Source: Tichowtungia aerotolerans (GTDB lineage Bacteria; Verrucomicrobiota; Kiritimatiellia; Kiritimatiellales; Tichowtungiaceae). From it: 64,000 nucleotides of DNA. Below, one piece after another: positions 3,397-50,710 of this stretch (its first letter is position 1; the number at the start of each line of letters is the position of its first letter). The notes under the pieces were generated by a model. The model ran no database searches, was not told where the DNA came from, and was given only the letters and a program-made list of their open reading frames with translations. The position numbers were made by a program, and so were the translations under genes. Location: the NCBI RefSeq assembly GCF_009905215.1, contig NZ_CP047593.1, positions 3,538,900-3,602,899 on the forward strand. Direction: 5' to 3'.

Positions 3397-5358
3397 TTAG
3401 CGATAAATTTTTCCGGCGCGAAAGTCGGCCCATGCGGTTTCGAACCAAAGGTTGCTTTCCGGAATCGGACGGCATTTTACCCAGCGGTTTTTGATTTTCC
3501 CGCCGGCGACCACGGTCTCCTGCACTTTTTCTTTGAAGGAGGGATCTTCCGGCAGGAAGCTCCACTCGTCTTTGGCGAGCTGTTTATGGGCGCGTTTTCC
3601 GGATGCGTCGCGCACCATGGCTGACCCGCGCGAGCCGACACCGCTTTTTACCTGATAGAGCGTCGCAGCCAGATAAACCCAGTGTGCGTAACAGAGCTGC
3701 CGGTTACGAAGCGCCTGAACTTTTTCAACGGCATTACCGGCTTTGCATCCCTGCACTTCGAGCGCATCAAGCTGCTCTTTCGCTTCTTTGACGGCATCCT
3801 TCAATTCATCAAGCGAACGAATATGGGCCCCGGCACGACTCATACGCTCCTGCAGTTCATTTCGAACTGCCCGCCATTTCTGCCCTGACGTTTCACAGCG
3901 ACCGAGGAACCCGAGCACATCTCTTACTTCAGCGCGGGCGGCTTTGTTAAACTCGCTCATTTTCAAATCGGAACGTTCGTAGACATTGGCGATAAATTCA
4001 GCAGCGCGGATCGAACCGACCTGTCCGGAGTTCAGCGCAGAACCACCGGGACGCGCCACGCCGTGCGAACCGTTCACTTCACCGACCGGGAACAGGTGTT
4101 TAATGTTGATAGACTCCCACCAATGGTTGCCGGCCAGTCCGCCGTTGTTGTGCTGGGCGCAGACCGCGACCTCAAGCGGCTCTTGGGTGATGTCGATGCC
4201 GTGATCTTTATAGAGCGAGATCGCGCCGGGATTCATGTGCTTCAGCCGCTCAATCGGCGTCTTCTGAAACGCGCCTGAATTCTCCAGATACTCGAAGGCC
4301 TCTTTTTCCAATGTTTGGAAATCGAAGCCGTCCGGATTTTCGCGATAGTCAAGAAACACGCGGCGACCTTTGAGCGCGGTTTCGATATAGACCAGAATGT
4401 CTATAATCGATGACCCGCCGACAATTTTCTTGGAGTCAAACGGCCACTGATAGCCCTTCAGAAAAACCTTTGAGTGCATTTCACCGAGGTCGTCAAAATA
4501 ATCGCACAGAAATTCGCGCGGGTTGCTTTTGCCGTCGGCATCGGTGGAAACAAACTTCGGCACGACCTGCATATAGGTGCCGGAAACGTTCCAGCGGAAC
4601 TTGATGGACGCCAGACCGTACTGCGCTTCCGGAAGCCCCTGCGCCTTCGCGCCGGCACGCAGCGCGATGCCGATTGCGCCGGTATGCACCACCGGATACA
4701 CGCTGGTTTTGTACAGGCCGCCCGGCCCGCCCACCGCAAACACGACGTTGTCGGCGGCAAAGGCGACCAACTCGCCCTTGGCGTCGAGCGCCAGCGCTCC
4801 GCACGCGCGCTTCTCTTTGCCTTCGCCGACCGTAAGCAGGCTGACGACATTGGTTTTTTCCTGAACCGGAATGTCACGGCGTTTGACTTCGGCGATGAGA
4901 GCCAGACACATGTCGCGCGAGGTATAAGGACCGACTGACGTTCCGCGTTGCGCGGGATCGTGGTCGGTTTTGTAACCGATAAACTGCCCATAGGCATCCT
5001 GCGGGAATTTGACTCCGAGATTCACGAGGTTAAGGAAACCGCGCGCGGAAACCGCCGCTTCGATCAGCGCCAGATCGCCGTGCATGGAACCGGGCGAGAA
5101 AAAGTTTTTGGCCATGGCCAGCGGTGCATCGAGGTCGTTGCCGCACATCGCAGATTTGTAATAGGTCTGCTTGTCCGAGCCGGTGTTGATGGACGTTCCC
5201 ATCTTCAGCCCTTCGGTCACAATCAGCACGTCAGCAATGCCCTGATTGCGCAGCTGAACCGCCGCATTCAAGCCCGCCGCTCCGGAACCAATTACCAAAG
5301 AATGTACCCGTACAACCGGAACCGTATGCTGTCCAATCTTCAAATCACTCGTTTTCAT
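3397..5358 (-). CDS. FAD-dependent oxidoreductase (succinate dehydrogenase/fumarate reductase flavoprotein family)
   Basis: 653 aa. The N-terminal ADP-binding fold is VIGSGAAGLNAAVQLRNQG with the acidic end of strand 2 at VTEG. Long FAD_binding_2-type segments follow (VFAVGGPGGLY; GEVNGSHGVARPGGSALNSG near residue 430), and then a helical C-terminal domain. Relatives oxidise or reduce carbon-carbon or hydroxyl groups of small acids, and some sit in polysaccharide loci with unknown substrates. No signal peptide is seen, so it is probably cytoplasmic. No clear ribosome binding site precedes the ATG. One palindrome copy lies inside the gene at 4305-4321. Confidence 0.85.
   Translation of the reverse strand: MKTSDLKIGQHTVPVVRVHSLVIGSGAAGLNAAVQLRNQGIADVLIVTEGLKMGTSINTGSDKQTYYKSAMCGNDLDAPLAMAKNFFSPGSMHGDLALIEAAVSARGFLNLVNLGVKFPQDAYGQFIGYKTDHDPAQRGTSVGPYTSRDMCLALIAEVKRRDIPVQEKTNVVSLLTVGEGKEKRACGALALDAKGELVAFAADNVVFAVGGPGGLYKTSVYPVVHTGAIGIALRAGAKAQGLPEAQYGLASIKFRWNVSGTYMQVVPKFVSTDADGKSNPREFLCDYFDDLGEMHSKVFLKGYQWPFDSKKIVGGSSIIDILVYIETALKGRRVFLDYRENPDGFDFQTLEKEAFEYLENSGAFQKTPIERLKHMNPGAISLYKDHGIDITQEPLEVAVCAQHNNGGLAGNHWWESINIKHLFPVGEVNGSHGVARPGGSALNSGQVGSIRAAEFIANVYERSDLKMSEFNKAARAEVRDVLGFLGRCETSGQKWRAVRNELQERMSRAGAHIRSLDELKDAVKEAKEQLDALEVQGCKAGNAVEKVQALRNRQLCYAHWVYLAATLYQVKSGVGSRGSAMVRDASGKRAHKQLAKDEWSFLPEDPSFKEKVQETVVAGGKIKNRWVKCRPIPESNLWFETAWADFRAGKIYR
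4305..4321. repeat. dispersed palindrome, intragenic copy
   Basis: TTTCCAA-TGT-TTGGAAA, perfect 7-bp arms, inside the FAD oxidoreductase gene. In the coding frame it reads Phe-Gln-Thr-Leu-Glu. Confidence 0.85.
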
Positions 5359-6930: not shown

Positions 6931-7980
6931 TCAAGACAGTTCCCAACGACGAGGATTCACGTCAAGATCGCGAAAACCTTTGATCGATGCAAGCTCGGCG
7001 ATCAGGACAGAGTCGGTCAGTTGAAAGCCAAGAGCGGTTAGCTGCGAGAAATCAGCATTGTTTTCAACCGTATCGAGGAAGGCGGTGTAGAACGACGGGG
7101 CCACCGCGGTCACGTTTCGCACCTCTTCGTCATGTCCTTTGCGAATAAGCCGGATAGTGCCCAGTTCAGGGTTCGCTTCTAGACTGCCTTCCGAGCCAAC
7201 GATGCGCACCCAGTCATCCCCCCACGCTTTCTGCCCGTCGGGCCGCAGCAGATCAATGCTTACGGTCATCTGCACGCCGCCCTCCAGCAGGAAGAGACCA
7301 CTCAAACAGTCAGAGCAGCCAGGGCCGTACTCGGGATGGAAGCAATTCTGCTCCTGCGCTGCCAGTACCTTAACGGCATTGCGGCCGATGATGTGCGCGG
7401 CATGATTGAAGGAATGAATGCCGACCCAGCCCCAGATGCCGCCATAGGTTTCACGCTGTTTAAACCAGTCGGCGCGCGTGCCCCACTGATAGGATTTGCG
7501 GGCGTTGAGCAGTACCGGCTCACCGATTACCCCCTGCTCGACCAATTCACGAGCTTCCGCAAACGCAGGCACCTCATGCATTCCAAGCATTGGAAGAATG
7601 TATCTTCCGGTTTCCTGAACCGCCGCATGCAGACGACGCAGTCCGGCCTCATCCACCGCCAGCGGTTTTTCGGAAATCACATGACAACCCGCGCGCAGGC
7701 TTTTTTCAATTAAATCGGGGTTCAGATCCGGACGGGTGCTGACCACCACCAGATCCGGCTTTTCGACGGCCAGCGCCTCTTCCAGCTCCTGATAAATGGA
7801 TGGCGTAAATTTCTGCGCCCACGGGTGAGCAAGAAACCCGTCCAGTTTTTCATCCGGCAATGTCTGCACAGCACCGACCAGACGAACCGGCGCATCGTCG
7901 CGCATCCATTCATCAAAAACCCAAACCGCATGGCCAAACCCGCCCGCAAGCAGAACAGAAACCTCTTTTTTTTCTGACAT
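6931..7980 (-). CDS. Gfo/Idh/MocA family oxidoreductase
   Basis: 349 aa. It has an N-terminal Rossmann region (SVLLAGGFGHAVWVFDEWM), the family's conserved EKP motif in CHVISEKPLAVDEAG, and a C-terminal alpha/beta domain with GIHSFNHAAHI carrying the usual catalytic-type His. Members use NAD(P) to oxidise or reduce sugars and cyclitols. The start was placed at the ATG (MSEKKE) with AAGAAGGA 7 nt upstream, two codons inside the longest reading frame. It appears to be the first gene of the minus-strand operon that runs to the left edge. One palindrome copy lies at 7581-7595. Confidence 0.9.
   Translation of the reverse strand: MSEKKEVSVLLAGGFGHAVWVFDEWMRDDAPVRLVGAVQTLPDEKLDGFLAHPWAQKFTPSIYQELEEALAVEKPDLVVVSTRPDLNPDLIEKSLRAGCHVISEKPLAVDEAGLRRLHAAVQETGRYILPMLGMHEVPAFAEARELVEQGVIGEPVLLNARKSYQWGTRADWFKQRETYGGIWGWVGIHSFNHAAHIIGRNAVKVLAAQEQNCFHPEYGPGCSDCLSGLFLLEGGVQMTVSIDLLRPDGQKAWGDDWVRIVGSEGSLEANPELGTIRLIRKGHDEEVRNVTAVAPSFYTAFLDTVENNADFSQLTALGFQLTDSVLIAELASIKGFRDLDVNPRRWELS
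7581..7595. repeat. dispersed palindrome, intragenic copy
   Basis: TTCCAA-GCA-TTGGAA with perfect 6-bp arms, inside the Gfo/Idh/MocA gene. In frame it reads Leu-Pro-Met-Leu-Gly-Met, a different codon phase from the copy at 4305. Confidence 0.75.
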
Positions 7981-8092
7981 AAACAATCCTTCTTTTTAAT
8001 AAACTGTATTTGCTGGCACCCTGCGACGGAACTGGCCAACCGGCAGCTTTAAAAATGGCCGCAGCAAAAAAACAAAAATCCCAGCTATTTTT

Positions 8093-14312: not shown

Positions 14313-15551
14313 TTAAACAGAAACCAATTCTTCTGACGGCACTTCCGCCTGAAAGCGAACGGGAAACTGCGTGTAGCCATCTGTATAAAACGGTTCACTG
14401 GCGCGCACCCACGGGACACCGATTTCGGAAAAAAGCGAGTTCGACTCAAATGCCTCCTTCAGGATTTCCCCCATGCCGGCAATCGCAACCTGCGTTTCGT
14501 CGCCACGGACAGTTACGCAATCCAGTGCTTCAGGCGGAATCGTGCTGATGGTTTCAGCCGAATCAAAGGCGGCGTTGACGGTCAGCGTAAACGGGCGAGT
14601 ATCCGCCAGCGAACAGATAAGATCCTCATTACTGCGCAATGTACGGCAAAGGTGTTCGATCATCTCGAGACGGTTTTCCTTGAAGCTTTCGCGGTATTCC
14701 ACCGTTCCATCATTAAACGTAATCTCGACTTCCTGCAGGTTGATGAAGCGAATCACTGCCTGTTCGGTTTCAATAACGGTATCTGGATTGGACTCGTCCC
14801 TGCACGCCAGCGTCAGCCACGAAAGAATCTCCAGCCCCTCATCAGTAATGATGCGAATGGCGCTGGTGTCTTCGCTCTCAATCCGGTTGGCACGGTAGAG
14901 CTCGGCCTGCACCGACGCCGGATTTGCGAGCTCATTCTGAGAGCTTCCGGCAAAGAAAAGTCCATTGCAGACCACATGGGCAAACGGGTTATTGATGTCT
15001 CCGTCCAGAATCCAGCGTCCGTTTTTCTTCAAGGAACCGGCCCACCCGTTGCGGCTGAAATAGGCGTTGGTCCGCACCCATGCACCCCGCGACTTGATGC
15101 GTTTGATCTTTCCGTATTTCCCTGCGACCAGTTCGGCCTTGAGCTGCTGGGCGCGAAAGGAAAAGAGCGAGTTAAAGCAGACCGCAACCGGAAGTCCGGT
15201 GACCAGTGCCGCCGTATTGAGGTCATCCAGTTCCTGAACGGTGGCAACCGGCGGCTTTTCCATCCAGACCGGGAATCCGGCGGCCAGACACTGCTTGGTA
15301 ATGCCGGCATGCAGATGAATGGGTGTCGGGTTTATCACCGCCTCGAAATCACCGTATTCGAGCAGTTCACCAACCGTCTGAAACACCTTGATTCCATGCG
15401 CTCGACAGTAGTTCGCACCATCACTGTCGAGATCGCGCGAAGTTACCGCCGTAATTTTTCCGTACAACGGAGTGGTTTGAATTCGAATGATCAGCTGGTA
15501 GGCATAGCCGCCGCAGCCGATCACTCCGATTTTGACAGGATCATTTATCAT
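14313..15551 (-). CDS. Gfo/Idh/MocA family oxidoreductase
   Basis: 412 aa. The N-terminal NAD(P)-binding segment is KIGVIGCGGYAYQLI. The family EKP motif appears in FPVWMEKPPVATVQELDD, and a GDINNPFAHVV segment in the C-terminal domain carries a His near the expected active site. It probably oxidises or reduces a sugar derivative in the cytoplasm. The start has GGAG 7 nt upstream and overlaps the last 11 nt of the transporter gene, so import and this oxidoreduction step are probably co-translated. It is distinct from the shorter Gfo/Idh/MocA protein at 6931-7980. Confidence 0.9.
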   Translation of the reverse strand: MINDPVKIGVIGCGGYAYQLIIRIQTTPLYGKITAVTSRDLDSDGANYCRAHGIKVFQTVGELLEYGDFEAVINPTPIHLHAGITKQCLAAGFPVWMEKPPVATVQELDDLNTAALVTGLPVAVCFNSLFSFRAQQLKAELVAGKYGKIKRIKSRGAWVRTNAYFSRNGWAGSLKKNGRWILDGDINNPFAHVVCNGLFFAGSSQNELANPASVQAELYRANRIESEDTSAIRIITDEGLEILSWLTLACRDESNPDTVIETEQAVIRFINLQEVEITFNDGTVEYRESFKENRLEMIEHLCRTLRSNEDLICSLADTRPFTLTVNAAFDSAETISTIPPEALDCVTVRGDETQVAIAGMGEILKEAFESNSLFSEIGVPWVRASEPFYTDGYTQFPVRFQAEVPSEELVSV

Positions 15552-17772
15552 TCTGTTTCTCCAAAAGGGTATAGACGGTCAGACCGTCGAGGTTTTTATT
15601 GGATTTTCGGTAAAGCAGACTGGCCAGATACCCGACGACGATGCAGGTGAACACGCCGACCGTGAGGTAGGCCAACGCATGCAGGTTCATATAAAACTTG
15701 GCGTAATAATTTGCTGCAATCGAAGCGATGGTTCCGACCCAGGCGCCGACGCTGTTGGCGCGACGGGTGAAAATCCCCAGCACAAAAATTCCGGTAATCG
15801 GCGCAAGGATCATGCCGGTAATCATCAGGGCAAGATCCCAGACCGACAGCAGGCTGGTGCGCGCCAGCAGCAGCGCCGCGCCCGTCCCGAAACCCCCGAG
15901 GCTGATCGTCAGCGTACGCCCGAGAATCAGGCATTTATGATCTGTCGCCTTGGGAAAGAAGCGGCGATAAACATCCTCCACCCCGAGGTTGGCCACACTG
16001 TTGATGGCGCCGGAAACGGTGGACATGGTGGCGGCCAGCAACGCTGCAACCACAAAGCCCGCCATGCCGGGCGGAAGGTTCTGCGCGGCAAAGAACGGGA
16101 AAATCCCGTCGGACTTGAGTGCCGGACTGAGCACTTCCGGACGCGTTTTGTAGAAGAGGAACAGCAGGGTTCCCAGCGCGAACAGGACAACATTCATTGG
16201 CACAGCCACGGCCAGCTGCGTAATGATGGTTTTGCGCGATTCCTTTTCGTCCGGTGTGCACTGAATGCGCTGAATAAAGGTTTGGTCGCCGATCAGCCCG
16301 AAGGTCAGGGAAATCACATTGGTGAACAGAATCAGGAAAACCGGCGCGGTCCAATCGAAACTGAAATCGAACATCTGCAGCTTGTTCATGCCGGCCAGCG
16401 CCTCGCGGGCGGCAGGCATTGAAAGGTCCAGAGTGAAGAAAGCCCAGGCACAACAGGTTAGCACCGCCAGCAGCATCACCGTTGCCTGCAAGACGTCAGT
16501 CCAAATGACGGCCTCAAGCCCGCCGAGTGTCACATAAATGGTTGCGACCACACCCATAATCAGAATGCTCTGCTCCATCGGCAGGCCGAAGATGGCGCTG
16601 AGTGCAATCGAGGGAAGCAGCAGGATCGCGGCCATGCGCCCCAGCATCTGGTTGAGCGAATAAATAACAAAACCGAGCATACGGATCGGCACGCCATAGC
16701 GTCGCTCGAGATAGTCATTGGCCGTTGCGATATTCAACCGGCGAATGAGCGGAACATAAACCAGCAGCATCAGCGGCAGTTGAACGATAACAATAAAAAT
16801 GGAAATCGAAAAATAGATCCAGTTGCCGGCGAAAGCCTTGCCCGGCATGGCCATCAGGCTGATGGCGCTTGCCCCGCTGGCAAACAGGCTGAGGCCCGCC
16901 GCCCACCACGGAACCCGCTGGCCGGCGCGAAAATAGTCACCGCTCGATTTTTCTTTTTTCGAAAAAACAACCCCGACCATCACCAGCGAGACAACCAGAA
17001 TCGCCACGACAAAATGGTCGACCCACCCATACTTGGTCGGATGCAGCTTCGCTTTCCCGGATACAACAGAGTCTTCACAAAAGAGAAAAAACTCCGTCCC
17101 GACTGACGCCACACCGATCGGCAGAACAGCCTGCGGAAGACGGTCCAGCTCAACCCATGAACCGGTCACACGATAATAAGCCAGAATGCGGTCATCGACT
17201 TTATTGGCATTAAAATAAAGCAGGTGTTCATTGCCGCAGGCGGCAGCAACAAAGCCGCTCAGGTCTTCGGGAGCCGGGCTGAGTATTATCCATTCATCGC
17301 GAACCGGGTTATAGGAAAACGCCCCTGCCCCGAACTCACCCGTTCCGCTCACATACAGCGCACCGTTCAGGCCGACAAGCACCGGTTTACCAACAGCAGG
17401 CTCCGGCAGCGAAGAACACTCAGACCACCCGGACTGCAGATCGGAAAGGTTCAGCTTAAACAGTTGCGATCCACCTGCAACAAACAGGTTCCCATCGGCA
17501 ACGGTCGCACCGGGATTGGTCAATACGGCCGGAAGATCCGGCAACGTGGTGGACTCCTCTCCCTCCACACGAAGAACGTTCTGACCGTCAATCCGATAGA
17601 CCCCGTCCTGAATTTTCACTCCCTGGAAAACCAGAGCACCGGAACCGCTCTGCACAACAGCCTCAGCAGGTGCCGAAGAAAAATCAAAAAAACCGTCGGA
17701 GGTTTCCGCAAAGGAAAAACCGGCACAGGCCAGTATCAATGAAAGCGTAATTTTTGCAAACTGGGTCATCAT
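15541..17772 (-). CDS. Kelch-domain/sodium:solute symporter fusion
   Basis: 743 aa. A signal peptide is followed by a beta-propeller-like Kelch region (about 25-240; repeats such as LPDLPAVLTNPGATVADGNL and NLSDLQSGWSECSSLPEP). A membrane domain follows from about 255 with many transmembrane helices of the SSS type (AGLSLFASGASAISLMAMPG, a typical SSS core segment; GGLEAVIWTDVLQ; LLAATMSTVSGAINSV). The Kelch part resembles periplasmic sugar mutarotases of the NanM type, so the fusion may supply the preferred anomer to a Na+-driven importer. The transported sugar is unknown. It heads the operon with the Gfo/Idh/MocA and lyase-like genes. Confidence 0.9.
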   Translation of the reverse strand: MMTQFAKITLSLILACAGFSFAETSDGFFDFSSAPAEAVVQSGSGALVFQGVKIQDGVYRIDGQNVLRVEGEESTTLPDLPAVLTNPGATVADGNLFVAGGSQLFKLNLSDLQSGWSECSSLPEPAVGKPVLVGLNGALYVSGTGEFGAGAFSYNPVRDEWIILSPAPEDLSGFVAAACGNEHLLYFNANKVDDRILAYYRVTGSWVELDRLPQAVLPIGVASVGTEFFLFCEDSVVSGKAKLHPTKYGWVDHFVVAILVVSLVMVGVVFSKKEKSSGDYFRAGQRVPWWAAGLSLFASGASAISLMAMPGKAFAGNWIYFSISIFIVIVQLPLMLLVYVPLIRRLNIATANDYLERRYGVPIRMLGFVIYSLNQMLGRMAAILLLPSIALSAIFGLPMEQSILIMGVVATIYVTLGGLEAVIWTDVLQATVMLLAVLTCCAWAFFTLDLSMPAAREALAGMNKLQMFDFSFDWTAPVFLILFTNVISLTFGLIGDQTFIQRIQCTPDEKESRKTIITQLAVAVPMNVVLFALGTLLFLFYKTRPEVLSPALKSDGIFPFFAAQNLPPGMAGFVVAALLAATMSTVSGAINSVANLGVEDVYRRFFPKATDHKCLILGRTLTISLGGFGTGAALLLARTSLLSVWDLALMITGMILAPITGIFVLGIFTRRANSVGAWVGTIASIAANYYAKFYMNLHALAYLTVGVFTCIVVGYLASLLYRKSNKNLDGLTVYTLLEKQNDK

Positions 17773-17833
17773 GTATTCTTTTCTGAGGCTTCAATGGTTA
17801 TGAGGCTTCCTGCCTCGTCTACAGTTATTTACA

Positions 17834-17882
17834 TTTTCCAACCTTTGGAAAAAACCGCATGGGCTTTTCCAAAAGTTGGAAT
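17834..17882. repeat. phased pair of TTCCAA-N3-TTGGAA palindromes
   Basis: TTTTCCAA-CCT-TTGGAAAA (17834-17852, perfect 8-bp arms) and TTCCAA-AAG-TTGGAA (17867-17881, with extra T/A flanks). They lie in the gap between the giant secreted protein gene and the symporter gene. Their centres are 31 bp apart, three helical turns. They are downstream of one gene and upstream of the other. Confidence 0.85.
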
Positions 17883-17889
17883 ACTCTCC

Positions 17890-20800
17890 TTACTCTGCCT
17901 TCTCAACCTGCAGGCGCAGGAACTTCGCATCCGAATCTGCCGAAACCGTATTGGTAACCGACTCGAATCCGGCAGCGGAAACACCGACACCTGTTTCTGA
18001 TACACCGTTGGTCGTCCAAGTGTTGGCGGACAGATCCGTATCGGTTTTAACCGTATAAGTCAGCCCGCGGTCAGTCGCATCCGTACGGCGCTCGTAAACA
18101 TAAACAAACAGTCCGCTGTCGGAATCCACCGCTGCCAGCGGCAGGACGGATCCGACATCTGCCGCTTCTGGATTCCCACCGAGAGCGTATTCGGTCAGGT
18201 TGTCCATGCCGTCGCCGTCGAAGTCGTCCAGCAGATTGGTCTGGCTGCCAACGCTGTACTCGCCAATCCAGCCTTCAAAGGTCGATGGAGCCTTCGGCAA
18301 TCGAACCGTCAGAGCAAAGTTGTCGAAGATCACATTCGGAACCACCTCGAGGTCCAGATTGCTGTCCGGGGCCAACAGGCCGGCATAACCGTCGCTTAAC
18401 GTAACAGACGGAGACCATGCCGTCTCAGGATTCAGCACCGTAGAGCTGCCAGCTTCTGTGATTTCGATCGAATATCCCGTTCCGGCACCGGACACCCTGA
18501 AGGTATAGGCCGTTCTGGCGTCAAAGTTTGCCGAAGCATTGTTGAGCGACGTGTCCGCATTGGCACCGTCAACCACCGCAATGTAATGATAGCTGGGATT
18601 TCCGGTCTTGATACGGGCCAGGCAGTAGTTGGATGGGTTCTGGTAATTGAATACCACTCCGCACCACTGTTCGTTGGTCGCGGCAGTGACGTCCGCACTC
18701 ATCGTAAAGCTTGCGCCATCAGCAGAAGAGATCTGCAAAGAGGTGTTGTATATGATCGGGGTATCATACGTATTGTTTGCGACACCCGCTTCCAGCTTAC
18801 TGCCGTTGATTCGCCACAGGTTAGTTCCCGGAACCACCCAGTCAGAACGAATGTCCGCGCCATTGGAGCTCCATGCGGTACCCGTGCGGTTAAAGTCGTC
18901 AGTGATCTGGCTGTCGACGGTGGCAAGTTCCGTTTCAGCCACTTTCAGCACCATCGAAGCGAACCTAAAGGTAGGGTTTGCGGTGGCATCGAAATGCATC
19001 CGCTGCATCAAAACGCCGGCAGCCTGAATATCAGTCAGGGTTGATCCGGCAACCCCGGCACCGAGATTACTCTCATCGCAAAACAGGTTTTCAGACGGAT
19101 CGTATGGATACCACGTTTCAGTATAGCCGTTCACATTAAAGCTTCCGGAGGCAACCGTCGCAGCCGAAACATACCAGTCTGAACCGTCCTGCACCAAAGC
19201 GCGTGCCATGCCTGCATCACCGTCAACAACAAACGCAACCGAGCTTGCCGAATCCTCGAATCCGAGAGTCTGGGTGGCGGAATTAAATCCGTTCAGAAAG
19301 TTGGCCTTTTTCACGTACGGAGCAAATGCCATCCCCGAATCGGCTGTCGCATTCGCATCAAACACCATCTGAAGAGCATCGGAGGCTCCCCGCCATTTGT
19401 AGTTGATTTGCTCAACAACCGGGGCGGTTACTGCATTGTCAAAATTAACATACTGCGCTCCACCGAAAAACGTTATCGTCTTATTGGTCAGACCGTTCAC
19501 ATTGTCGATCGTGACAAATGCATCGGTAATTTCACGCTGGGCCGCATAATCGTCAATGGCATTGACACCGAACTCATAGTCTCCCAAAGCCACAGTGAGC
19601 GACTCGCCATTACTTGTCTGATTGAGATCGTTATAGTCACCGCCGAAATCAATCGCCTTTGTTGAAGGAGCCTCGGATTGAACCATATTGGCCGACATCT
19701 CTGTAATCTGGAAGTTGGCCGCGTGCTGGCTGGTTCCGTTGAAGTGCAACCCCTGCATCAGAACTCCGAAAGCCTGAATATCCGTCAACTCAGAACCGGC
19801 CACGCCGGAACCGAGGCTGGACGTATTGAGGAACAGATTGATTGCAGGGTTATAAGGGTACCATGTTTCAGCATAGCCGTTGAAGCTGACAGCTCCCGCA
19901 TTCTCATTCACCAGTCCGGAACCAGACACATACCAATCCGAGCCACTCTGCACCAGTACACGCGCGGTATCACCTTCCGCAAACTGTTGAAGTGTGAATG
20001 AAACCGAATCCGCCGTATTTTCGAACGAAAGGACGTATGAATTGTCATTCAGGCCACTGAGAAAATCTACCTTCTTCACATATGGAGTGAACACCAGCCC
20101 CATATTGGATGTTCCCACATCGCTGGTAACCTGAAGGGAGTCTGCACTGGCACTATAGCGGTACAAGCCCAATGCCGAATCCGTCAGCGATCCAAAGTTT
20201 GCAATCTGAGCACCAGCATAAAAGGTTTTGGTATCGCCGGGTGCTCCTGTGCCTCCGGACGGAACAATGGTGTAAAATGCACTGCTGATATCGCGGTATC
20301 CCCGGCGATCCTCACCTGCCGTTCCAAAATCAAAGTCGCCTGTTTCATAATCCAGCGTCTCATCAAGGGAAACGTTACTATCCCGATAATCACCGCCAAA
20401 ATCGACCGCGAGGGTGCTGGATGGCGGAGCTTCCTGGAATCCGACAACTCCAATAATGCACTGATAGGTATCCGCAGTGAAACTGTAGCTCTTCAGGCCG
20501 GGAGACGCTTCGTTATGATAACCCGCAAGAACTTCGCAGGAGCCGCTGGCTCCCGTATAAAGAATATTTGAAAAAGATGTGGAGCTGACTGCGATCCCGC
20601 CATTGTTTTCGTTGTATACACCCAGAACGAACGTATTTGACACGGTCGTAGTCACATCAATCGACAAAGAATCAGCCTCTGAATCAGTGAGTAACGGACC
20701 GCCCGGTGCCGCGTTTTGCAGACTAAGAACGCCTATTCGAGTTGTATCAGCACCGTTCCATTGAGCGACGATGTCCTGTGTGCCGATATCCGGGGCATCT

Positions 20801-21093
20801 AAATACCAAATCGAAACCATGCGATGACTGTTTGCTACAGAATAGGCTTCCGAAAAAGTCTGGCTCCCATATGAAATGTTTGTAATGCCAATCGCGTTCC
20901 CTTCCCAGGTTGCAACCAAAACCAGCTTCCGGTTGTTTCCTGCAGCCGTTTCAAAGGCCGAAATCGTGTTCGAATCCAGATTCGACGATTGATAGTGATC
21001 CGCACTGCCGCTCACGACGATCTGTGCCGATGCACTGAATGTACACAACACAGCAATCAAGGCCGCGAACCATTTACTGAACATGCTCTTCAT
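17890..21093 (-). CDS. giant secreted multidomain protein with tandem duplicated domain
   Basis: 1067 aa from the ATG preceded by AAGGAG (the longer frame lacks support). A signal peptide ends at SASAQ. Residues about 25-224 are a domain homologous to residues 833-1028 of the 1155-aa enzyme (NITYGG/NISYGS, WYLDEP/WYLDAP, RIGVLSLQNAA). Residues 225-475 and 476-721 are two tandem copies of one domain (DFGGDY at the start, GSDWYVS, ETWYPY, GVAGSxLTDIQAxGVLMQ). Residues about 722-935 look concanavalin-like. The C-terminus carries DDFDGDGMDNLTEYALGGNP, a calcium-binding segment. No catalytic signature is recognisable; surface binding or display is most likely. Confidence 0.8.
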   Translation of the reverse strand: MKSMFSKWFAALIAVLCTFSASAQIVVSGSADHYQSSNLDSNTISAFETAAGNNRKLVLVATWEGNAIGITNISYGSQTFSEAYSVANSHRMVSIWYLDAPDIGTQDIVAQWNGADTTRIGVLSLQNAAPGGPLLTDSEADSLSIDVTTTVSNTFVLGVYNENNGGIAVSSTSFSNILYTGASGSCEVLAGYHNEASPGLKSYSFTADTYQCIIGVVGFQEAPPSSTLAVDFGGDYRDSNVSLDETLDYETGDFDFGTAGEDRRGYRDISSAFYTIVPSGGTGAPGDTKTFYAGAQIANFGSLTDSALGLYRYSASADSLQVTSDVGTSNMGLVFTPYVKKVDFLSGLNDNSYVLSFENTADSVSFTLQQFAEGDTARVLVQSGSDWYVSGSGLVNENAGAVSFNGYAETWYPYNPAINLFLNTSSLGSGVAGSELTDIQAFGVLMQGLHFNGTSQHAANFQITEMSANMVQSEAPSTKAIDFGGDYNDLNQTSNGESLTVALGDYEFGVNAIDDYAAQREITDAFVTIDNVNGLTNKTITFFGGAQYVNFDNAVTAPVVEQINYKWRGASDALQMVFDANATADSGMAFAPYVKKANFLNGFNSATQTLGFEDSASSVAFVVDGDAGMARALVQDGSDWYVSAATVASGSFNVNGYTETWYPYDPSENLFCDESNLGAGVAGSTLTDIQAAGVLMQRMHFDATANPTFRFASMVLKVAETELATVDSQITDDFNRTGTAWSSNGADIRSDWVVPGTNLWRINGSKLEAGVANNTYDTPIIYNTSLQISSADGASFTMSADVTAATNEQWCGVVFNYQNPSNYCLARIKTGNPSYHYIAVVDGANADTSLNNASANFDARTAYTFRVSGAGTGYSIEITEAGSSTVLNPETAWSPSVTLSDGYAGLLAPDSNLDLEVVPNVIFDNFALTVRLPKAPSTFEGWIGEYSVGSQTNLLDDFDGDGMDNLTEYALGGNPEAADVGSVLPLAAVDSDSGLFVYVYERRTDATDRGLTYTVKTDTDLSANTWTTNGVSETGVGVSAAGFESVTNTVSADSDAKFLRLQVEKAE

Positions 21094-21369
21094 AACCATC
21101 TCCTTTCTATCTCTCATTCCAATACATCGGAGCTCCTGACCATTAATGGCGCAACAGACCGACGCAAGAGCCACATGGTACTACATGAAACAAACATGTC
21201 AACATACATTCCTGCTGATCATCATCTGAGGCATCACAAAGGCCAAAAAATCGATAAGAAACATGATCAAACAGAACCCGCCCCAACAAAACAAACAATC
21301 CAACTTGACAAGTTTCACGCAACAAAACAACATATGTAACATACATATTTAACGAAAACCGGGAGCCCC
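21094..21369. promoter_or_regulatory. divergent intergenic region
   Basis: About 276 bp between the divergently transcribed giant secreted protein and the third lyase-like gene; visibly AT-rich. It must hold promoters for both. TTGACA occurs at 21305-21310 in the plus orientation, but I see no well-spaced -10 hexamer for it. A putative LacI operator lies near its right end. Confidence 0.5.
21332..21348. promoter_or_regulatory. putative LacI-family operator
   Basis: ATATGTAACATACATAT is nearly palindromic about its central C (arms ATATGTA and TACATAT). Its 11-bp core TGTAACATACA recurs exactly at 24901-24911 before the lacI-type gene. It lies 21 bp before the ATG of the 872-aa gene, a position suited to repression. 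Confidence 0.6.
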
Positions 21370-23988
21370 ATGAAACACATTTTGCTGATTGCAACACTCT
21401 GCGCCGCGGCGCACTGCCTCGGCGATAAACCGCTCGATTTCTGGGACGAGGAAATTCGCCTGTTCAACACCGCCAGACCTGCGCGCCCACTCGACGTCAT
21501 GCTGAGCGCACACCGGGCAGCGGAGTTTAAACCGCGCGGTTTTTCACTCGATCATGCCGATCATAAAGTCGGCGACCTGAGCATCGCCTACTCCCCCGCC
21601 AAAGCCGGTATGCCGAAACGCTTCGGCTTTTTCGCCGGCCTATGGAACGAAAAATGGACGCTTTCTCCTGAAGCCAGCTTAACAATGTGGATCAAAGCGG
21701 AGAACACTGATTTTTCCGCCCCCTGGAGAATTACACTGGTTGACTTCCAAAACCTGGAAGCCGTCGGAGAACTGAACGGCATTACCGGCGACTGGCAGGA
21801 ACTGACACTGCCGCTGAGTGAACTGAAGGCCGCAAACGGCTTTGACTGGACCCAGGTGAAGCTGTGTGAGTTCGATGCCAAACTCGACAAGGAAGCCCTC
21901 GTTCACTTTGACGGCATCCGTTTCAAAAACGACAAAGACGTGACCGGCGTAACCGATAAAACTGTCGTCCAGCGCATGGCCGAGGCCGAGATAAGCCGCA
22001 CATTGCGCATGGAAACCGCACTCAAGACGGCCGCCGACAATGAAAACGGCGGTCTCTACGCGCCGGTCGCCGCGTTTGCAAAAATGATGCTCAACGAAGA
22101 TCTCGAAACCGCCAACCAAATATTGACCGATGAGCTGAAACAAAGCTCGGAAGCCAACGTATGGAGCCTGCTGCACACCCCGCTCTATTGCCGCTTCTAC
22201 TACATGTTTTCCAACCGCTGCGGAAAATTCCCGGGCCGCATGACGCCCGAAACAGAAAAGCTGCTGCTCAAAACGCTGTGGAGCCGCACCTCTTCCAAGA
22301 ACGATATTCACTGGGCACGCCAAAGCACCTGGTATCTGGACGGCAGCGAAAACCACGACCTCAACGCCAAGGCCTGCAACCTGGTTACTTCGCACATTTT
22401 TATGAATGAGCCGGACTACAAAGACCGCATCTATCCCGACTACGGATTCGGAGGCAGCTATCACTACGGACACGCAGGTTACTACGGACCCGGCGTTGAT
22501 GAAAAAACTCGCCACCACGGCGGGCGTGCCAATTTGTCCGACGAAAAAAAACACAACGCCGCAGACCATTACGAAGCGTGGCTGGCCTATTTTAAAACAT
22601 ACTTCCGCGAACGCGCCGAACGCGGTTTCTTTCTGGAATACGGATCCTACGGATACAGCAAGCACACGCTCAATATGTTCGACCTCGCCCAGCACTATTG
22701 CGGCGACGATGGGTTACGTTCCATGCTCGACAACTTCCTTACACTCTATTGGGCGGAGTGGGCTCAGGTTTCGATTTCCGGCGTGCGCGGCGGCCCCAAA
22801 ACCCGTCATCACAGCAAGGTTGGCGGCCCCGACGACAAAGCCACTGCGGATCTAATCGGCTTTCACCTCGGCGGTCCGGGCAACGCCGGCCCGTGGTGGT
22901 ACTGGAACATCGTCAACGACTACCGGCTGCCATCCATCGTCTGGAAAATGGCACTCGACCGCGAAGGCATGGGATGCTTCACCTATAAAGCGCGCGGCAT
23001 CGGCGAAGAAGTGAATGAAATGCCCCGCCCGCTCGGCACGGAACGCAGCCTGGTGGTCGACACCGAAGCGCGCATGCTGAAAAACACCTATGTCACTCCC
23101 GACTACACCCTCGGCACACAAATGGACCACCCGCTCACCGCGCATTCTCATCTGAGCATCTGCGGCCGCTGGCACGGCATGACCTTTGCGCAGAATCCGC
23201 ACTGCCGCATCGTTCCAGTCGGCATCACTGACGGCCCCAACGAAAAGGGCAAGAAAAGCCCCTACGACCTCGAAGTGATGTATCACACCGCACAGCACGA
23301 GCGCACACTGATCGTTCAGCAGTCGCGCCGCTGGTATGCCATCCATCCGGACTGGTATCCAAACAGCATTGAGTACAATCAGCCGGTCGGCATCTGGTTC
23401 GGCAACGAATGGGACAAACGCATCGAAAAAGACGGATGGATTTTTGTGCAGAGTGGCGACGCCTACGCCGCCGTGCGTCCAGTCTTATGGGACGAAGCCT
23501 ACGAAAAGGAAAACAAGAAAAAGACGACCGGCAATCAGGTCTTCTTTAACGCGCCCGACGACGCCCCGACCGTCAAGCTGCGCACCGACTGCCATAAGTG
23601 GAATGAAAACAAAACAATGCTGATCTACGAGGACAACTACACCGCCACCATCATCGAAGCGGGACGCCGGATTGATTATCCGACCCTGGAAGAATTCATG
23701 GCCGATGTACTCGACAATCCGATCGCGCTCTATAAAACGGTTGTGCCGGGTGACAACATTCTCGTCTACACCCCTTGCGGAAAAGACGCGAAAGAGATGG
23801 TCTTCAACTGCGGCACCGTACAGATTCCAACCATTGGAAACGAGCCGGTCAACTACAGCTACCCAATGACCTTCGACAGCCCGACCCTGAAGTCGAAGTA
23901 CAAAAGCGGAAAAATCCGCATCGAATTCGGCGGAGAAACCCTCGACCTCGATTTTTCAAGGAAACCTTGGTGGAACTTTTGGAAGTAA
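21370..23988 (+). CDS. secreted helical-toroid polysaccharide lyase-like enzyme with N-terminal beta-sandwich
   Basis: 872 aa with a signal peptide (HILLIATLCAAAHCLG). Residues about 25-185 look like a CBM-like jelly-roll (WKLSPEAS-type pattern, WRITLVDFQN, HFDGIRFKND). The rest aligns with the two paralogues on the other strand: DGSENHDLNAKA, YGYSKHTLNMFD, YWAEWAQVSISGVRGGPKTRHH. It differs by a Tyr/Gly/His-rich insertion after the SENH motif (YHYGHAGYYGPG), suggesting a different subsite or substrate. GGGAG precedes the ATG. It is followed at 74 nt by a DUF1961-like gene and then by a LacI regulator; a matching operator lies upstream. Confidence 0.82.
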   Translation: MKHILLIATLCAAAHCLGDKPLDFWDEEIRLFNTARPARPLDVMLSAHRAAEFKPRGFSLDHADHKVGDLSIAYSPAKAGMPKRFGFFAGLWNEKWTLSPEASLTMWIKAENTDFSAPWRITLVDFQNLEAVGELNGITGDWQELTLPLSELKAANGFDWTQVKLCEFDAKLDKEALVHFDGIRFKNDKDVTGVTDKTVVQRMAEAEISRTLRMETALKTAADNENGGLYAPVAAFAKMMLNEDLETANQILTDELKQSSEANVWSLLHTPLYCRFYYMFSNRCGKFPGRMTPETEKLLLKTLWSRTSSKNDIHWARQSTWYLDGSENHDLNAKACNLVTSHIFMNEPDYKDRIYPDYGFGGSYHYGHAGYYGPGVDEKTRHHGGRANLSDEKKHNAADHYEAWLAYFKTYFRERAERGFFLEYGSYGYSKHTLNMFDLAQHYCGDDGLRSMLDNFLTLYWAEWAQVSISGVRGGPKTRHHSKVGGPDDKATADLIGFHLGGPGNAGPWWYWNIVNDYRLPSIVWKMALDREGMGCFTYKARGIGEEVNEMPRPLGTERSLVVDTEARMLKNTYVTPDYTLGTQMDHPLTAHSHLSICGRWHGMTFAQNPHCRIVPVGITDGPNEKGKKSPYDLEVMYHTAQHERTLIVQQSRRWYAIHPDWYPNSIEYNQPVGIWFGNEWDKRIEKDGWIFVQSGDAYAAVRPVLWDEAYEKENKKKTTGNQVFFNAPDDAPTVKLRTDCHKWNENKTMLIYEDNYTATIIEAGRRIDYPTLEEFMADVLDNPIALYKTVVPGDNILVYTPCGKDAKEMVFNCGTVQIPTIGNEPVNYSYPMTFDSPTLKSKYKSGKIRIEFGGETLDLDFSRKPWWNFWK
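23825..23839. repeat. dispersed palindrome, intragenic copy
   Basis: TTCCAA-CCA-TTGGAA with perfect 6-bp arms inside the 872-aa gene; in frame Ile-Pro-Thr-Ile-Gly-Asn. Confidence 0.75.
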
Positions 23989-34969: not shown

Positions 34970-35823
34970 TTCAAAAACCTGTTCTGATGTAGAATCCGGT
35001 CACGCTGACCAGCGGCATCTTCAAGCCATTGGCGAATATCATTGCTGTCGCCCTTGCGCAGAATGGCAATAAGCCCCTGCAGTTCCTCGTGAAAGTGATC
35101 CAGCTCCGCTTCGAGCGCGGCGCGGTTGGTGTCAATAATGTCCACCCACATATCGGCCGATCCGGAAGCCACCCGAGAGGTGTCCTTAAAACCGGTTCCG
35201 CAAAAATCAGCTTTTTCGACACCGACCGAACGAGCCAGCGCAGCCGCCACCATATGCGGAAGATGACTGGTCGACGCCAGCGTTGCATCGTGTTGTTCGG
35301 CGGACATTTCAACCACTTCCGACCCAACGCATTTCCAAAGATTGGAAACTTTATCTTTTGCAGCAGCAGGTGTTTTGTCGGTCGGACAAACCACCGCCAG
35401 ACGGCCTTCATATAAATCCGGACTCCCGGCCATTACGCCGGTTTTTTCAGATCCGGCGATCGGGTGCGATCCGATAAAACAGGCGCCGCTATTCGCAAAA
35501 CAAGCCTCCATAACAGAAATCAGGTCCGTCTTGGTGCTGCCGACGTCCGTCACAACCGCGCCGGGCTCCAGCGCCGGAACAATGGCTTTTGCGAGTTCAG
35601 CAATCGTCCAGATCGGAACACAGATGACCACCAGATCCGCACCGGAAACCGCTTCCGCCGGATCCGTATACGCCGCATCCACAGCCCCCAACTCCAGCGC
35701 CTCTTCGCAGGTTTCTCTGCGTCGAGCATAGCCTTGAATGCATACCGAAACCCCGCGCTTCTTCAGCGCGAGGCCTAGCGAAGAGCCCATCAGCCCCAGT
35801 CCAATAATTGAAAGTGTTTTCAT
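34966..35823 (-). CDS. tyrA: prephenate dehydrogenase
   Basis: 285 aa from the ATG of MKTLSIIGLGLMGSSLGLAL, a canonical NAD-binding start. Conserved features include ADLVVICVPIWTIAEL, VTDVGSTKTDLISVME, FIGSHPIAGSEKTGVMAG (prephenate-binding His/Ser region) and STSHLPHMVAAALA. It converts prephenate to 4-hydroxyphenylpyruvate for tyrosine. The reading frame extends upstream to 36237, but that part has no homology features and would overlap the divergent binding-protein gene. Palindrome copies lie inside it (35332) and 40 bp upstream (35863). Confidence 0.93.
   Translation of the reverse strand: MKTLSIIGLGLMGSSLGLALKKRGVSVCIQGYARRRETCEEALELGAVDAAYTDPAEAVSGADLVVICVPIWTIAELAKAIVPALEPGAVVTDVGSTKTDLISVMEACFANSGACFIGSHPIAGSEKTGVMAGSPDLYEGRLAVVCPTDKTPAAAKDKVSNLWKCVGSEVVEMSAEQHDATLASTSHLPHMVAAALARSVGVEKADFCGTGFKDTSRVASGSADMWVDIIDTNRAALEAELDHFHEELQGLIAILRKGDSNDIRQWLEDAAGQRDRILHQNRFLK
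35332..35348. repeat. dispersed palindrome, intragenic copy
   Basis: TTTCCAA-AGA-TTGGAAA, perfect 7-bp arms, inside tyrA; in frame Ser-Asn-Leu-Trp-Lys. Confidence 0.85.
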
Positions 35824-35862: not shown

Positions 35863-35879
35863 TTTCCAAAGATTGGAAA
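35863..35879. repeat. dispersed palindrome upstream of tyrA
   Basis: TTTCCAA-AGA-TTGGAAA, perfect 7-bp arms, in the 173-bp gap between divergent tyrA and the solute-binding-protein gene. It is in the region where tyrA leader or promoter signals should lie, and it is identical to the copy inside tyrA. Confidence 0.85.
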
Positions 35880-42714: not shown

Positions 42715-44391
42715 TCACACGGCAGTTCGCTGAAAAGTCTGAGGAAACTCATCCGGATCCATGTTCGGCAGCGCCATGGCGTCAATATAACGGTCATTGA
42801 ACTCAGCACACTTATTCAGATGCAATGCCGACGGTCTTCTCGACAGGTTCAGCAGCTCATCAAAAGCCACCGGAGAACCCAGCGCCGCATAGGCTCCGGC
42901 CAAAGAACCGTTGCCGATCACATCATAGGTTGAGAGCGGCAGTTCCGGCAGCAGACCGATGGTAATCGCATGTTCAATGCGCAGATGCGCAGCAAAGCCT
43001 CCAGCCAGCACCAGCCGCTGAACATCCTGCAATTCGCGCCCGGCTTCTGAGAGAATCGTACGAATACCGGCATAAACAGCGCCTTTGGCCTTTAAAATCT
43101 GGGACACATCGTACTCGGTAATCATTACCGGCTCATCCAGCGCCGATTCTTCCTGCGGCACCAGAATACAGGCATTCACCGTCATGCCGTGGCAGTCGAG
43201 CTGAACCAGGCGACCGGCCGCCCGCAGCCGATCGAGATCGAACCGCCCCATCATGTTCAGCAACCCGCTCTCAAAAGCCGTCGCCATAAAATCAATCGCC
43301 GCACTTCCGCACAGTCCGGATGCCGGGCCGCCGCCAATCACCTCAACATCCATTGAATCATCCGGATTGCAGATGACCTGCTCAATCACGCCATCGCCGG
43401 CGCGCGCACCGTGCAGCAGCCCCGCGCCCTCAAACGCCGGTCCGGCAGCCGTGGCCGTGGCAATCATCCGCCCGTCTTCCATCAGCACGATTTCACCGTT
43501 GGTGCCGATATCCACCAGCATTTCCACACCGCTGCCGGATGGAGCGCTGACATACAGGTCGGACACAACATCGCCTCCGACATATCCCGCAACCGCCGGA
43601 AGCAGACGTACCCGGGCATTCGGACAGCAATCCAGTCCGATTTCAGATGCAGGATGTTCCCGGAATACTTTCATCAACGGTTCAAACGGAATCGTGCCGA
43701 TACTCAGCGCGGACAGCCCGAGAACCAGATGGCTCATGACAGTATTGCCGGAAAAAACAATCTCAGTCACGCTGTCCAATCCCTGGAACTTTTCTTTCCA
43801 ATGCTCGGAAACTGCGGCTTCAAGTTTTTCAAACATTGGGAAAAGGGTCTCTGTGATGATGAGCTGACGAAGTTTTTCGACGTTTTCCGCTTCGCAGCAC
43901 AGCGCGATCCGCGCCGCCACATCAGTACCCAGCTCGATCTGGCGGTTATAGGCCGACTCGCGTGCCAGAATTTTTCCGGAGGAAAGCTCAACCAGCAGCG
44001 CGGCGACAGTCGTCGTGCCGATATCCACAGCAATCCCGAACTGCCCCTCGCAGCTTTCCAATGGCTGAAAAATGCTGCTGCGCTCAGAGTAGAAGTCCGC
44101 AGATGCACACTCGCCGATATTCAGAAGCGATCGTGCCGGAATCTCCACTTCGGTTGCCTCGGAAAGCACAGCGGCCTGACAGGCCCGAACCTCGGCCGGC
44201 GCATGCACGGTCTTCCCTCCGACGCCGACACGGCCGGAAACCAGCCTGACCGTACAGCCCCGGCATGCGCCCTGCCCGCCGCACTGCATATTGAGCGGAA
44301 ATCCCGCGTCAGCGGCAAGCTCGGCCAGCGTACGCTCAGAGCAACCCGCAATTTCTTTGCGGGTTCCGTTGGATCTGAAAACAAGTCTCAT
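42715..44391 (-). CDS. ASKHA-domain corrinoid activator (RACo/RamA-like) with 2Fe-2S domain
   Basis: 558 aa. An N-terminal plant-type ferredoxin domain has the Cys pattern CGGQGACRGC plus a later Cys (ACQAAV). A long ASKHA-type ATPase region follows (GIAVDIGTTTVAALLVELSSG; IVFSGNTVMSHLVLGLS; VDIGTNGEIVLM; AGGFAAHLRI). Proteins of this DUF4445-type family use ATP to reduce Co(II) corrinoid back to Co(I) for methyl transfer. The corrinoid protein is encoded 69 nt upstream on the same strand, with a terminator between them. No methyltransferase gene lies next to it. Confidence 0.9.
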   Translation of the reverse strand: MRLVFRSNGTRKEIAGCSERTLAELAADAGFPLNMQCGGQGACRGCTVRLVSGRVGVGGKTVHAPAEVRACQAAVLSEATEVEIPARSLLNIGECASADFYSERSSIFQPLESCEGQFGIAVDIGTTTVAALLVELSSGKILARESAYNRQIELGTDVAARIALCCEAENVEKLRQLIITETLFPMFEKLEAAVSEHWKEKFQGLDSVTEIVFSGNTVMSHLVLGLSALSIGTIPFEPLMKVFREHPASEIGLDCCPNARVRLLPAVAGYVGGDVVSDLYVSAPSGSGVEMLVDIGTNGEIVLMEDGRMIATATAAGPAFEGAGLLHGARAGDGVIEQVICNPDDSMDVEVIGGGPASGLCGSAAIDFMATAFESGLLNMMGRFDLDRLRAAGRLVQLDCHGMTVNACILVPQEESALDEPVMITEYDVSQILKAKGAVYAGIRTILSEAGRELQDVQRLVLAGGFAAHLRIEHAITIGLLPELPLSTYDVIGNGSLAGAYAALGSPVAFDELLNLSRRPSALHLNKCAEFNDRYIDAMALPNMDPDEFPQTFQRTAV

Positions 44392-49438: not shown

Positions 49439-50710
49439 TTAAATATCCTGGACAGCAGAAATGAAGGCCTCGATATCGGCGTCCGTGTGGGCGGCGGAAA
49501 TGAAGGCGCACTCAAACTGTGACGGCGGAAGATAGAAACCGCGGTCGAGCATGGCATGAAAAAATGCGGCGTGAGCTTTCGTGTCGCAGGCTTTAGCCTC
49601 GGCCAGATTCCGGATCGGTCCTCTGCCGAAGAACGGCGTAAAGACGCCGCCGAGCTGAGATAGATAAAAATTATGCGCCCCAACGCAGTTGGTTTCCAAC
49701 CCTTGGAAACTTTCCGCCAGTTTTTTCCCAACATTGGAAATCTGGTCGTACGGGTTTTCTTCAACGAGCAACTCGACGGTTTTCATCCCGGCGGCAACGG
49801 CGACGGGATTGCCGCTGAGCGTTCCGGCCTGATAGACATCGCCAACCGGGGCGAGGCGCTGCATCACCTCTTTGCGCCCGCCGAGAGCGGCGAGCGGCAT
49901 GCCGCCGCCGATGATTTTGCCGAGCGTTGTCAGGTCGGACGTAATTCCGACCTGTTCGCCGTACGTGGTCGGCCCGAAACGGAAACCGGTGATAACTTCG
50001 TCAAAAATGAGCAGTGCGCCGCAGCGATCGGCTTCGGCGCGCAGGTGCTCGAGAAATCCGTCGACCGGAGGCACCAATCCCATATTTCCGGCGACCGGCT
50101 CGACAATGATAGCGGCAACTTCATCGCCGTACGCATCAATCAGGTCGCTGACAGCCTGTTTGTCGTTGTAGGCAGGCAGAAACACATCTCCCTCGTCCAC
50201 ATAAACGCCGGCTGACGAGGAAATGCCGCCGGTCAGCAGTCCGCTTCCGGCTCCGACGAGCAGTCCGTCGGAGTGCCCGTGGTAACCGCCGTCAAATTTG
50301 ATGATGCGACGACGACCGGTAAAGCCGCGTGCGAGGCGCAACGCGGTCATGACCGCTTCAGTTCCGGAATTGACGAGCCGCACCTGATCCATAACCGGAA
50401 CCAGCGAGCAGAGCAGTTCGGCGAATTCGACTTCGCGCGGCGTATTGATGCCAAAGGTCATGCCGTCACGGGCGGCCTTTGCGACGGCTTCGACCACTTC
50501 TTCGCGGGCGTGCCCCAGAATAAGCGGCCCCCATGAGCCGCAGAAATCGATCAGCTCACGACCATCGGCGGTTGTAATGCGCGGCCCGTGCCCTTTCACA
50601 ACATAAAGCGGGTCACCGCCCACGGCATTAAATGCCCGCACAGGGCTGTTCACTCCGCCGGGAATGACCTTCTGTGCACGGCTGAAATATCGGGCTGACT
50701 GACTGTTCAT
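49439..50710 (-). CDS. hemL: glutamate-1-semialdehyde 2,1-aminomutase
   Basis: 423 aa, normal length. PLP enzyme features are NSGTEAVMTALRLARGFTGR, GGYHGHSDGLL, LIFDEVITGFRFG and the PLP Lys in LTTLGKIIGGGMP. It makes 5-aminolevulinate for haem and corrinoid synthesis. The stop is followed by the resB-ccsA genes on the same strand, and the divergent neighbour is an octaheme cytochrome, so haem supply, attachment and user are clustered. AGGA lies 8 nt before the ATG. Two palindrome copies lie inside the gene. Confidence 0.97.
   Translation of the reverse strand: MNSQSARYFSRAQKVIPGGVNSPVRAFNAVGGDPLYVVKGHGPRITTADGRELIDFCGSWGPLILGHAREEVVEAVAKAARDGMTFGINTPREVEFAELLCSLVPVMDQVRLVNSGTEAVMTALRLARGFTGRRRIIKFDGGYHGHSDGLLVGAGSGLLTGGISSSAGVYVDEGDVFLPAYNDKQAVSDLIDAYGDEVAAIIVEPVAGNMGLVPPVDGFLEHLRAEADRCGALLIFDEVITGFRFGPTTYGEQVGITSDLTTLGKIIGGGMPLAALGGRKEVMQRLAPVGDVYQAGTLSGNPVAVAAGMKTVELLVEENPYDQISNVGKKLAESFQGLETNCVGAHNFYLSQLGGVFTPFFGRGPIRNLAEAKACDTKAHAAFFHAMLDRGFYLPPSQFECAFISAAHTDADIEAFISAVQDI
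49692..49740. repeat. phased pair of TTTCCAA-N3-TTGGAAA palindromes inside hemL
   Basis: GTTTCCAA-CCC-TTGGAAAC (49692-49710, perfect 8-bp arms) and TTTCCCA-ACA-TTGGAAA (49724-49740, one mismatch). Their centres are 31 bp apart, the same spacing as the pair at 17834-17882, although this pair is inside a conserved coding sequence. Confidence 0.85.

Follow-up and report, generated by a model that had tools for sequence, protein, structure and literature searches.

The operators of Lrp/AsnC-type proteins are 15-bp palindromes of 6-3-6 geometry that lie about three helical turns apart, and NrdR boxes are likewise paired palindromes about three turns apart, with a box sequence of their own and one small regulon. 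The palindrome pair described here, of the form TTCCAA-N3-TTGGAA, has the 15-bp 6-3-6 geometry and the spacing of about three turns of Lrp/AsnC operators, and it resembles NrdR boxes in its pairing and spacing but differs from them in sequence and in the small regulon that those boxes serve. The available part of PMC3536758 describes the K-box of ComK in Bacillus as built on the AT-box AAAA-N5-TTTT and present in promoter regions, with whole helical turns between the boxes, which thereby lie on the same face. The same rule is followed here, where spacings of 22, 31 and 42 bp leave 7, 16 and 27 bp between sites, although the sequence is a different one, most of the sampled sites are genic and arrays of more than two sites occur. 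As far as that portion of the source goes, the spacing rule works like that of the ComK K-boxes, but by its sequence the palindrome is not a K-box. Another parallel is matS, the 13-bp target of MatP, for which the accessible portion of PMC3330122 gives 23 copies within an 800-kb terminus domain. Both are short targets repeated across a chromosome and linked (here by our interpretation) to its structure, but the palindrome occurs in hundreds of copies chromosome-wide rather than in one domain, and in helically phased clusters. Finally, the HIP1 element of cyanobacteria, a contiguous GCGATCGC tied to orphan methyltransferases (PMC4390886, in part), is also a highly iterated palindrome of uneven abundance within a clade; the present sequence, however, is not a contiguous GCGATCGC and follows a phasing rule, none being noted for HIP1 in the portion available. 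No published description of this palindrome was found in the open-licence literature searched, represented mostly by titles and the beginnings of abstracts, and a term search of the accessible text of PMC10880615 (on Pontiella agarivorans) returned neither 'palindrom' nor 'motif'.

The window analysed here is the whole 64,000-nucleotide stretch of the Tichowtungia aerotolerans chromosome (genome G000 among the genomes compared). Read directly from the window sequence, TTCCAANNNTTGGAA is present at 17836-17850 and 17867-17881, with perfect 6-bp arms in both cases. The first site, TTCCAACCTTTGGAA (TTCCAA-CCT-TTGGAA), is centred on 17843 and the second, TTCCAAAAGTTGGAA (TTCCAA-AAG-TTGGAA), on 17874, so that the centres are 31 bp apart. 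The central A of the second site is a rare variant, as 125 of 132 perfect sites from the same genome carry G or C at that position. The pair lies in a 117-bp intergenic gap (17773-17889) between two minus-strand ORFs. The downstream gene (15541-17772, minus strand) has a clear Pfam match to the SSF sodium symporter domain (156.5 bits) and a NANM/Kelch-like match of 34.9 bits, below the curated cut-off of 45; it encodes a single protein that combines a Kelch/NANM-like stretch with a sodium:solute symporter domain. The two sites are 71 and 102 bp upstream of the start of this ORF. The upstream gene (17890-21174, minus strand) encodes 1094 amino acids with no Pfam match at an E value of 0.001, and its stop codon is 8 bp away from the second site. 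The palindromes, their perfect arms, centres and spacing, and their placement between the Kelch-SSS gene and the giant gene had all been given in a preliminary description of this DNA, and they are confirmed by the sequence and the ORF coordinates.

The palindrome is not confined to this gap. The single-contig genome (3,882,676 bases) contains 567 perfect copies, compared with none of a reversed control pattern; with the central base of the pattern set to S and up to one mismatch allowed, 1183 copies were found against 11 for the control. All ten perfect copies in the window have an arm gap of 3, and arm gaps of 0-2 and 4-8 yield none. The same preference is seen in two larger samples of the chromosome: a first of 464 kb, scanned for arm gaps of 0-14, holds 73 copies with a gap of 3 and one each with gaps of 11 and 14, and a second of 400 kb holds 59 with a gap of 3 and none with any other gap within 0-11. 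The 132 perfect sites give the extended consensus tTTCCAA-NSN-TTGGAAa, with T at -1 (0.72) and at -2 (0.51), and conservation drops off about 3 bp beyond the palindrome. Among 129 single-mismatch sites, 62 depart at arm position 5 and 34 at position 4, the inner A's thus accounting for 96 of 129; 86 of these departures are A>G, a pattern unlike even decay, and TTCC is broken in only 33 sites, summed over its four positions.

Elsewhere in the window, motif scans place perfect sites at 2216-2230 (with a single-mismatch partner at 2174-2188, spacing 42), within the ORFs 3397-5358 (site 4306-4320), 6931-7986 (7581-7595) and 21370-23988 (23825-23839), at 35333-35347, which is intergenic according to crude gene calls, and at 35864-35878, where a two-mismatch neighbour at 35799 lies 65 bp away and out of phase. 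A perfect and a single-mismatch site are spaced 31 bp apart in an aminotransferase gene (49694-49739), and a two-mismatch and a perfect site 42 bp apart in mnmA (53185-53241), while a gene resembling RACo carries a cluster of degenerate sites (one or two mismatches) with spacings of 22 and 31 or 32 (43774-43842). Across the chromosome as a whole, sites with no more than one mismatch turn up in 37 of 40 spread 20-kb stretches. A stretch of 126 kb outside the window (G000:C1:94645-220624, enclosing loci L346 and L060) is without a perfect copy among the matches listed, and two 20-kb samples from it are without a site even at one mismatch. The proteins scanned there resemble accessory sugar-use functions (GH4, a LacI-type regulator, a substrate-binding protein, a beta-helix protein and FAD oxidoreductases), and this stretch may be acquired DNA or a domain of different organisation.

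The preliminary description had also read the 31-bp spacing as three helical turns, an idea that is strongly supported by the clustering of neighbouring copies at whole-turn spacings. The genome contains 26 pairs of perfect copies spaced 16-46 bp apart, with spacings of 22 (five pairs), 30 (one), 31 (twelve), 40 (one) and 42 (seven) and with varying spacer sequences. All but one (25/26) deviate by no more than 1.5 bp from a multiple of 10.5, as would 10 of the 31 possible spacings by chance (p ~9e-12). When adjacent sites with up to one mismatch and 16-120 bp apart are considered, 22 of 22 are in phase in the first 464 kb; the later 400 kb adds 18 pairs, of which 16 are in phase and two, both at 82 bp, are not. 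Four of these 18 pairs were already visible in earlier genome-wide searches; among the 14 new ones, 12 are in phase (p ~8e-5). When the 40 adjacent pairs from 864 kb are pooled and periods from 6 to 40 bp compared, the best fit is obtained at 10.46 bp (bootstrap 10.33-10.60), which matches the helical repeat of B-DNA, about 10.4-10.5 bp. It should be noted that these conclusions rest on adjacent pairs, since Rayleigh values calculated over all pairs lack independence. At spacings above 120 bp, the first sample gives p ~0.003-0.006 (n=10) and the later one p ~0.14-0.49 (n=9). A few out-of-phase neighbours (9 and 65 bp) appear once up to two mismatches are allowed, and among the perfect copies in the matches listed two neighbours, at 67 and 71 bp, lie off the 10.5-bp grid. 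Spacings of 47-77 bp are represented by 12 pairs, where random placement would give about 2-3, an expectation that, like those below, presumes an even density that is not quite met, given the 126-kb stretch without a perfect copy.

Other genomes vary in how closely they follow the rule. In G036, all 36 pairs spaced 47-77 bp apart among the matches listed are in phase, against about 5 pairs expected by random placement; they fall at 52-53, 62-63 or 72-74 bp, some with a third site in between. In the neighbouring-family genomes G018, G019 and G020, the in-phase fractions over the same range are 12/20, 6/14 and 3/5 (chance share 11/31), with about 8, 6 and 3 pairs expected by random placement. 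Genome G120 favours 32 bp (six of eight adjacent pairs); at its loci L087-L090 the spacings are mostly 32, with one of 16, so that the 10.5-bp phasing fits it less well than other genomes. Phasing is therefore strong in T. aerotolerans, G036 and the array-bearing class members G048 and G132, but weak or absent in the three neighbouring-family genomes, which counts against its universality.

We consider it fairly likely that the two palindromes are sites of a putative cooperative, sequence-specific, dimeric DNA-binding protein that acts chromosome-wide. As neighbouring copies mostly lie whole helical turns apart, adjacent sites are probably occupied next to each other along a single face of the helix. 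One such putative protein would serve the more than one thousand perfect and single-mismatch sites. A symmetric dimer would occupy each palindrome and would presumably contact mainly TTCC/GGAA, given that most departures in single-mismatch sites are at the two inner A's. Dimers on adjacent sites would touch one another or a bridging partner, and because such contact would require the same side of the helix, spacings of two, three and four or more turns would be kept and others would not. At 17836-17881, the intergenic gap preceding the Kelch-SSS gene would accommodate two dimers at a distance of three turns. Such binding might silence, insulate, bridge or simply mark the DNA; since sites are spread over genes as well as gaps, a role in chromosome structure or in broad regulation is favoured over that of a dedicated operator.

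The dedicated operator, a pair of repressor or activator dimers controlling the transporter from this gap, is the reading of the preliminary description, which had singled out the pair as the best regulatory candidate among the repeats. The location of the sites upstream of the transporter ORF and their helical spacing are as such a reading would have them. So too is the distribution of intergenic sites: of the 40 for which the gap could be typed, 28 are in tandem gaps, nine in divergent and just three in convergent ones, yet 18.6 kb of the 66.0 kb of intergenic sequence is convergent (gene calls were made with a crude codon-usage script, so that intergenic lengths and classes are approximate). 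The genome, however, has hundreds of copies and 25 other close perfect pairs besides this one, and of 138 sampled sites with up to one mismatch, 87 are in coding sequence and 51 are intergenic (coding sequence covers 83% of the sampled DNA by the same calls). The coding sites are evenly distributed along genes, without bias to gene starts, and 43 of the 87 are translated in frame as F-Q-x-L-E. Likewise, 17 of the 35 clusters in the first 464 kb (up to two mismatches) overlap called genes, with the same spacings. Ten proteins flanking clusters, some lacking a Pfam match, share no common function; their products include MnmG, HlyIII, GrpE, HSP20, a decarboxylase and an ABC protein. Nor does the gap hold a listed promoter in a scan for the sigma-70-like type only. 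A dedicated Kelch-SSS operator thus appears unlikely, and the feature is a chromosome-wide one, beyond what the preliminary description had claimed.

A second alternative, that the pair forms a 17-bp inverted repeat just past the end of the giant gene's coding sequence and serves as a terminator or mRNA stabiliser at the transcript end, seems to us improbable. The arms are 94% complementary, and the minus-strand RNA folds at -25.7 kcal/mol (z -5.0), with none of 200 shuffles equally good; on the other strand the fold has a z of -5.6. Despite this hairpin, neither strand has after the pair the run of T's that marks a Rho-independent terminator. The pair is also missing from the list of terminator-like structures, but the loop limit of 8 in that scan would overlook a hairpin of this kind. 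Between positions 17000 and 18600 no Rfam family reaches its threshold: the one match lies elsewhere than the pair and scores far under the gathering threshold. As a general design the long hairpin does not hold up, since central triplets are complementary in just four of the 26 close pairs (1.3 expected, P 0.04); furthermore, hairpins do not need whole-turn spacing, and few sites occupy the convergent gaps.

About equally improbable is a short mobile or self-copying repeat (REP- or MITE-like) that has spread over the chromosome. Such a repeat would account for the high copy number and for patchiness among the species of one genus-level group, and the spacers common to several arrays in G057 and a 42-bp insertion in the G000 mnmA gene point in the same direction. 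Against a copied unit are conservation that fades about 3 bp outside the palindrome and spacers that differ among pairs of the same genome. The ORFs around 21 triple arrays (21 loci in 21 genomes, among the matches listed) similarly share motif stretches alone, as all 56 cross-locus ORF matches cover only motif-bearing stretches.

Comparison of three genes among relatives also bears on how the sites arose. The window mnmA gene (53003-54097) has named relatives of 72-80% identity, in metagenome genomes labelled Pontiellaceae, Kiritimatiellales, Kiritimatiellaeota or Verrucomicrobia. From the 40 genomes with a match, 30 loci were examined (12 from the genus and 18 from the neighbouring family). 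A site with up to one mismatch is found at the same position in seven of the 12 genus sequences, with central triplets that vary between species, and nowhere in the gene in the 18 neighbouring-family sequences, two of which have a two-mismatch site about 70 bases further on. The neighbouring-family genes align at the site region with about equal length (at most about one codon of difference), so that the mnmA sites arose almost without a change in length, against what a mobile repeat would predict. In G000, an extra 42-bp insertion bears the second, two-mismatch site exactly 42 bp on. The motif-less mnmA loops of G003 and G009 (L095 and L105) carry other palindrome-like, in-frame insertions instead. 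In the RACo-like gene, G002 and G005 each carry two perfect sites at a spacing of 32 bp; sequences of the neighbouring family align with this region gap-free, so that these sites too arose without a length change relative to that family. G008 and G009 retain one site with one mismatch, and in G000 a seven-codon insertion is present and the sites are degenerate, at spacings of 32 and 22 bp. The G000 insertions in these two genes mean that substitution was not the only way in which copies were gained. The aminotransferase gene has a pair with zero to two mismatches whose spacing is 31 bp in three genomes (G000, G002 and G005) and 42 bp in G008; in G012 two degenerate sites are out of phase at a spacing of 17 bp, and G003 has one; the stretch around the sites is variable in length within the genus. 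Few as these genes are, the comparison would fit DNA sites that are selected at kept positions while their spacing shifts by whole turns.

The weakest alternative, a methylation or repair mark akin to cyanobacterial HIP1 whose copies accrue without a spacing rule, would explain a highly iterated palindrome found in genes and gaps and patchy within a clade, but it is very improbable in that it leaves both the whole-turn spacing and the interrupted 6-3-6 site unexplained.

A search of relatives found at least one copy of the palindrome in 51 of 58 genomes (range 1-1339; controls 0-3). The neighbouring-family genomes G018, G019 and G020 have 640-1177 copies, and the species of one genus-level group range from 62 to 793 perfect copies. 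Pairs spaced 16-46 bp apart occur in 40 of 387 genomes of the phylum, of which 39 are the genome studied here or belong to the same class, which we take to be Kiritimatiellia, the other being G099. Arrays spaced at 31 or 32 bp are present in G057, G048, G199, G104 and G402 among the matches listed, mostly with differing spacers, the longest noted having seven sites (G057). Certain spacers are shared across arrays in G057, and their recurrence suggests that array pieces have been copied in that genome. With up to one mismatch allowed, the reversed control pattern AAGGTTNSNAACCTT is itself raised in G210 (52) and G001 (41), compared with 0-22 in the other 54 genomes, and in these two it is possibly another iterated palindrome.

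Phased pairs were also seen in IMG/VR, in four pieces of three viral contigs (L279, L280, L281 and L282). Piece L280, which encodes a portal protein and a head protease, has four sites at spacings of 31, 31 and 41, and in L282 a gene resembling that of the terminase small subunit adjoins the pair. Phages of these hosts may carry the sites.

A broader version of the preferred reading holds that bacteria of this class have a sequence-specific chromatin system, in which one protein would read more than a thousand genic and intergenic palindromes and join neighbours on the same DNA face into higher-order complexes; selection would have been strong enough to impose the 10.46-bp helical period on site spacing even in coding genes, and the system would have been gained or lost repeatedly within the class. 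We put this forward tentatively, as a possibility towards which we do not yet lean.

Because Lrp/AsnC operators share the 6-3-6 geometry and the spacing of three turns, a search was made with PF01037. Members of this family are present in 70 of 72 genomes, motif-rich and motif-poor alike and usually in single copy, and when 70 sequences from 69 genomes were compared by eye, their HTH residues were not split by motif count (two proteins in the alignment, L209 from G045 and L224, the second gene of G120, look like other proteins); Lrp/AsnC was accordingly rejected as the binder. By eye, the Lrp-like proteins of the class (L209-L278) have an acidic stretch (e.g., VDEVKKQIAEYE) at the expected second HTH helix, which would seem unusual for a reader of DNA. 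The binding protein was found neither in the PF01037 search of the 72 genomes nor in the gene neighbourhoods of the 21 triple arrays, where no neighbouring gene recurs. We also considered whether the ratio of single-mismatch to perfect sites in motif-poor genomes might indicate erosion after loss of the binder, but this was set aside because the mismatches in T. aerotolerans concentrate at two positions and resemble tolerated variants.

Since perfect copies span 62-793 within one genus-level group, differences in gene content offer a way to look for the putative binding protein. Helical phasing itself provides a built-in in vivo test of same-face cooperation. If the broader reading is true, the members of a whole bacterial class would own a dispersed, sequence-marked chromosome system that is undescribed in the literature searched.
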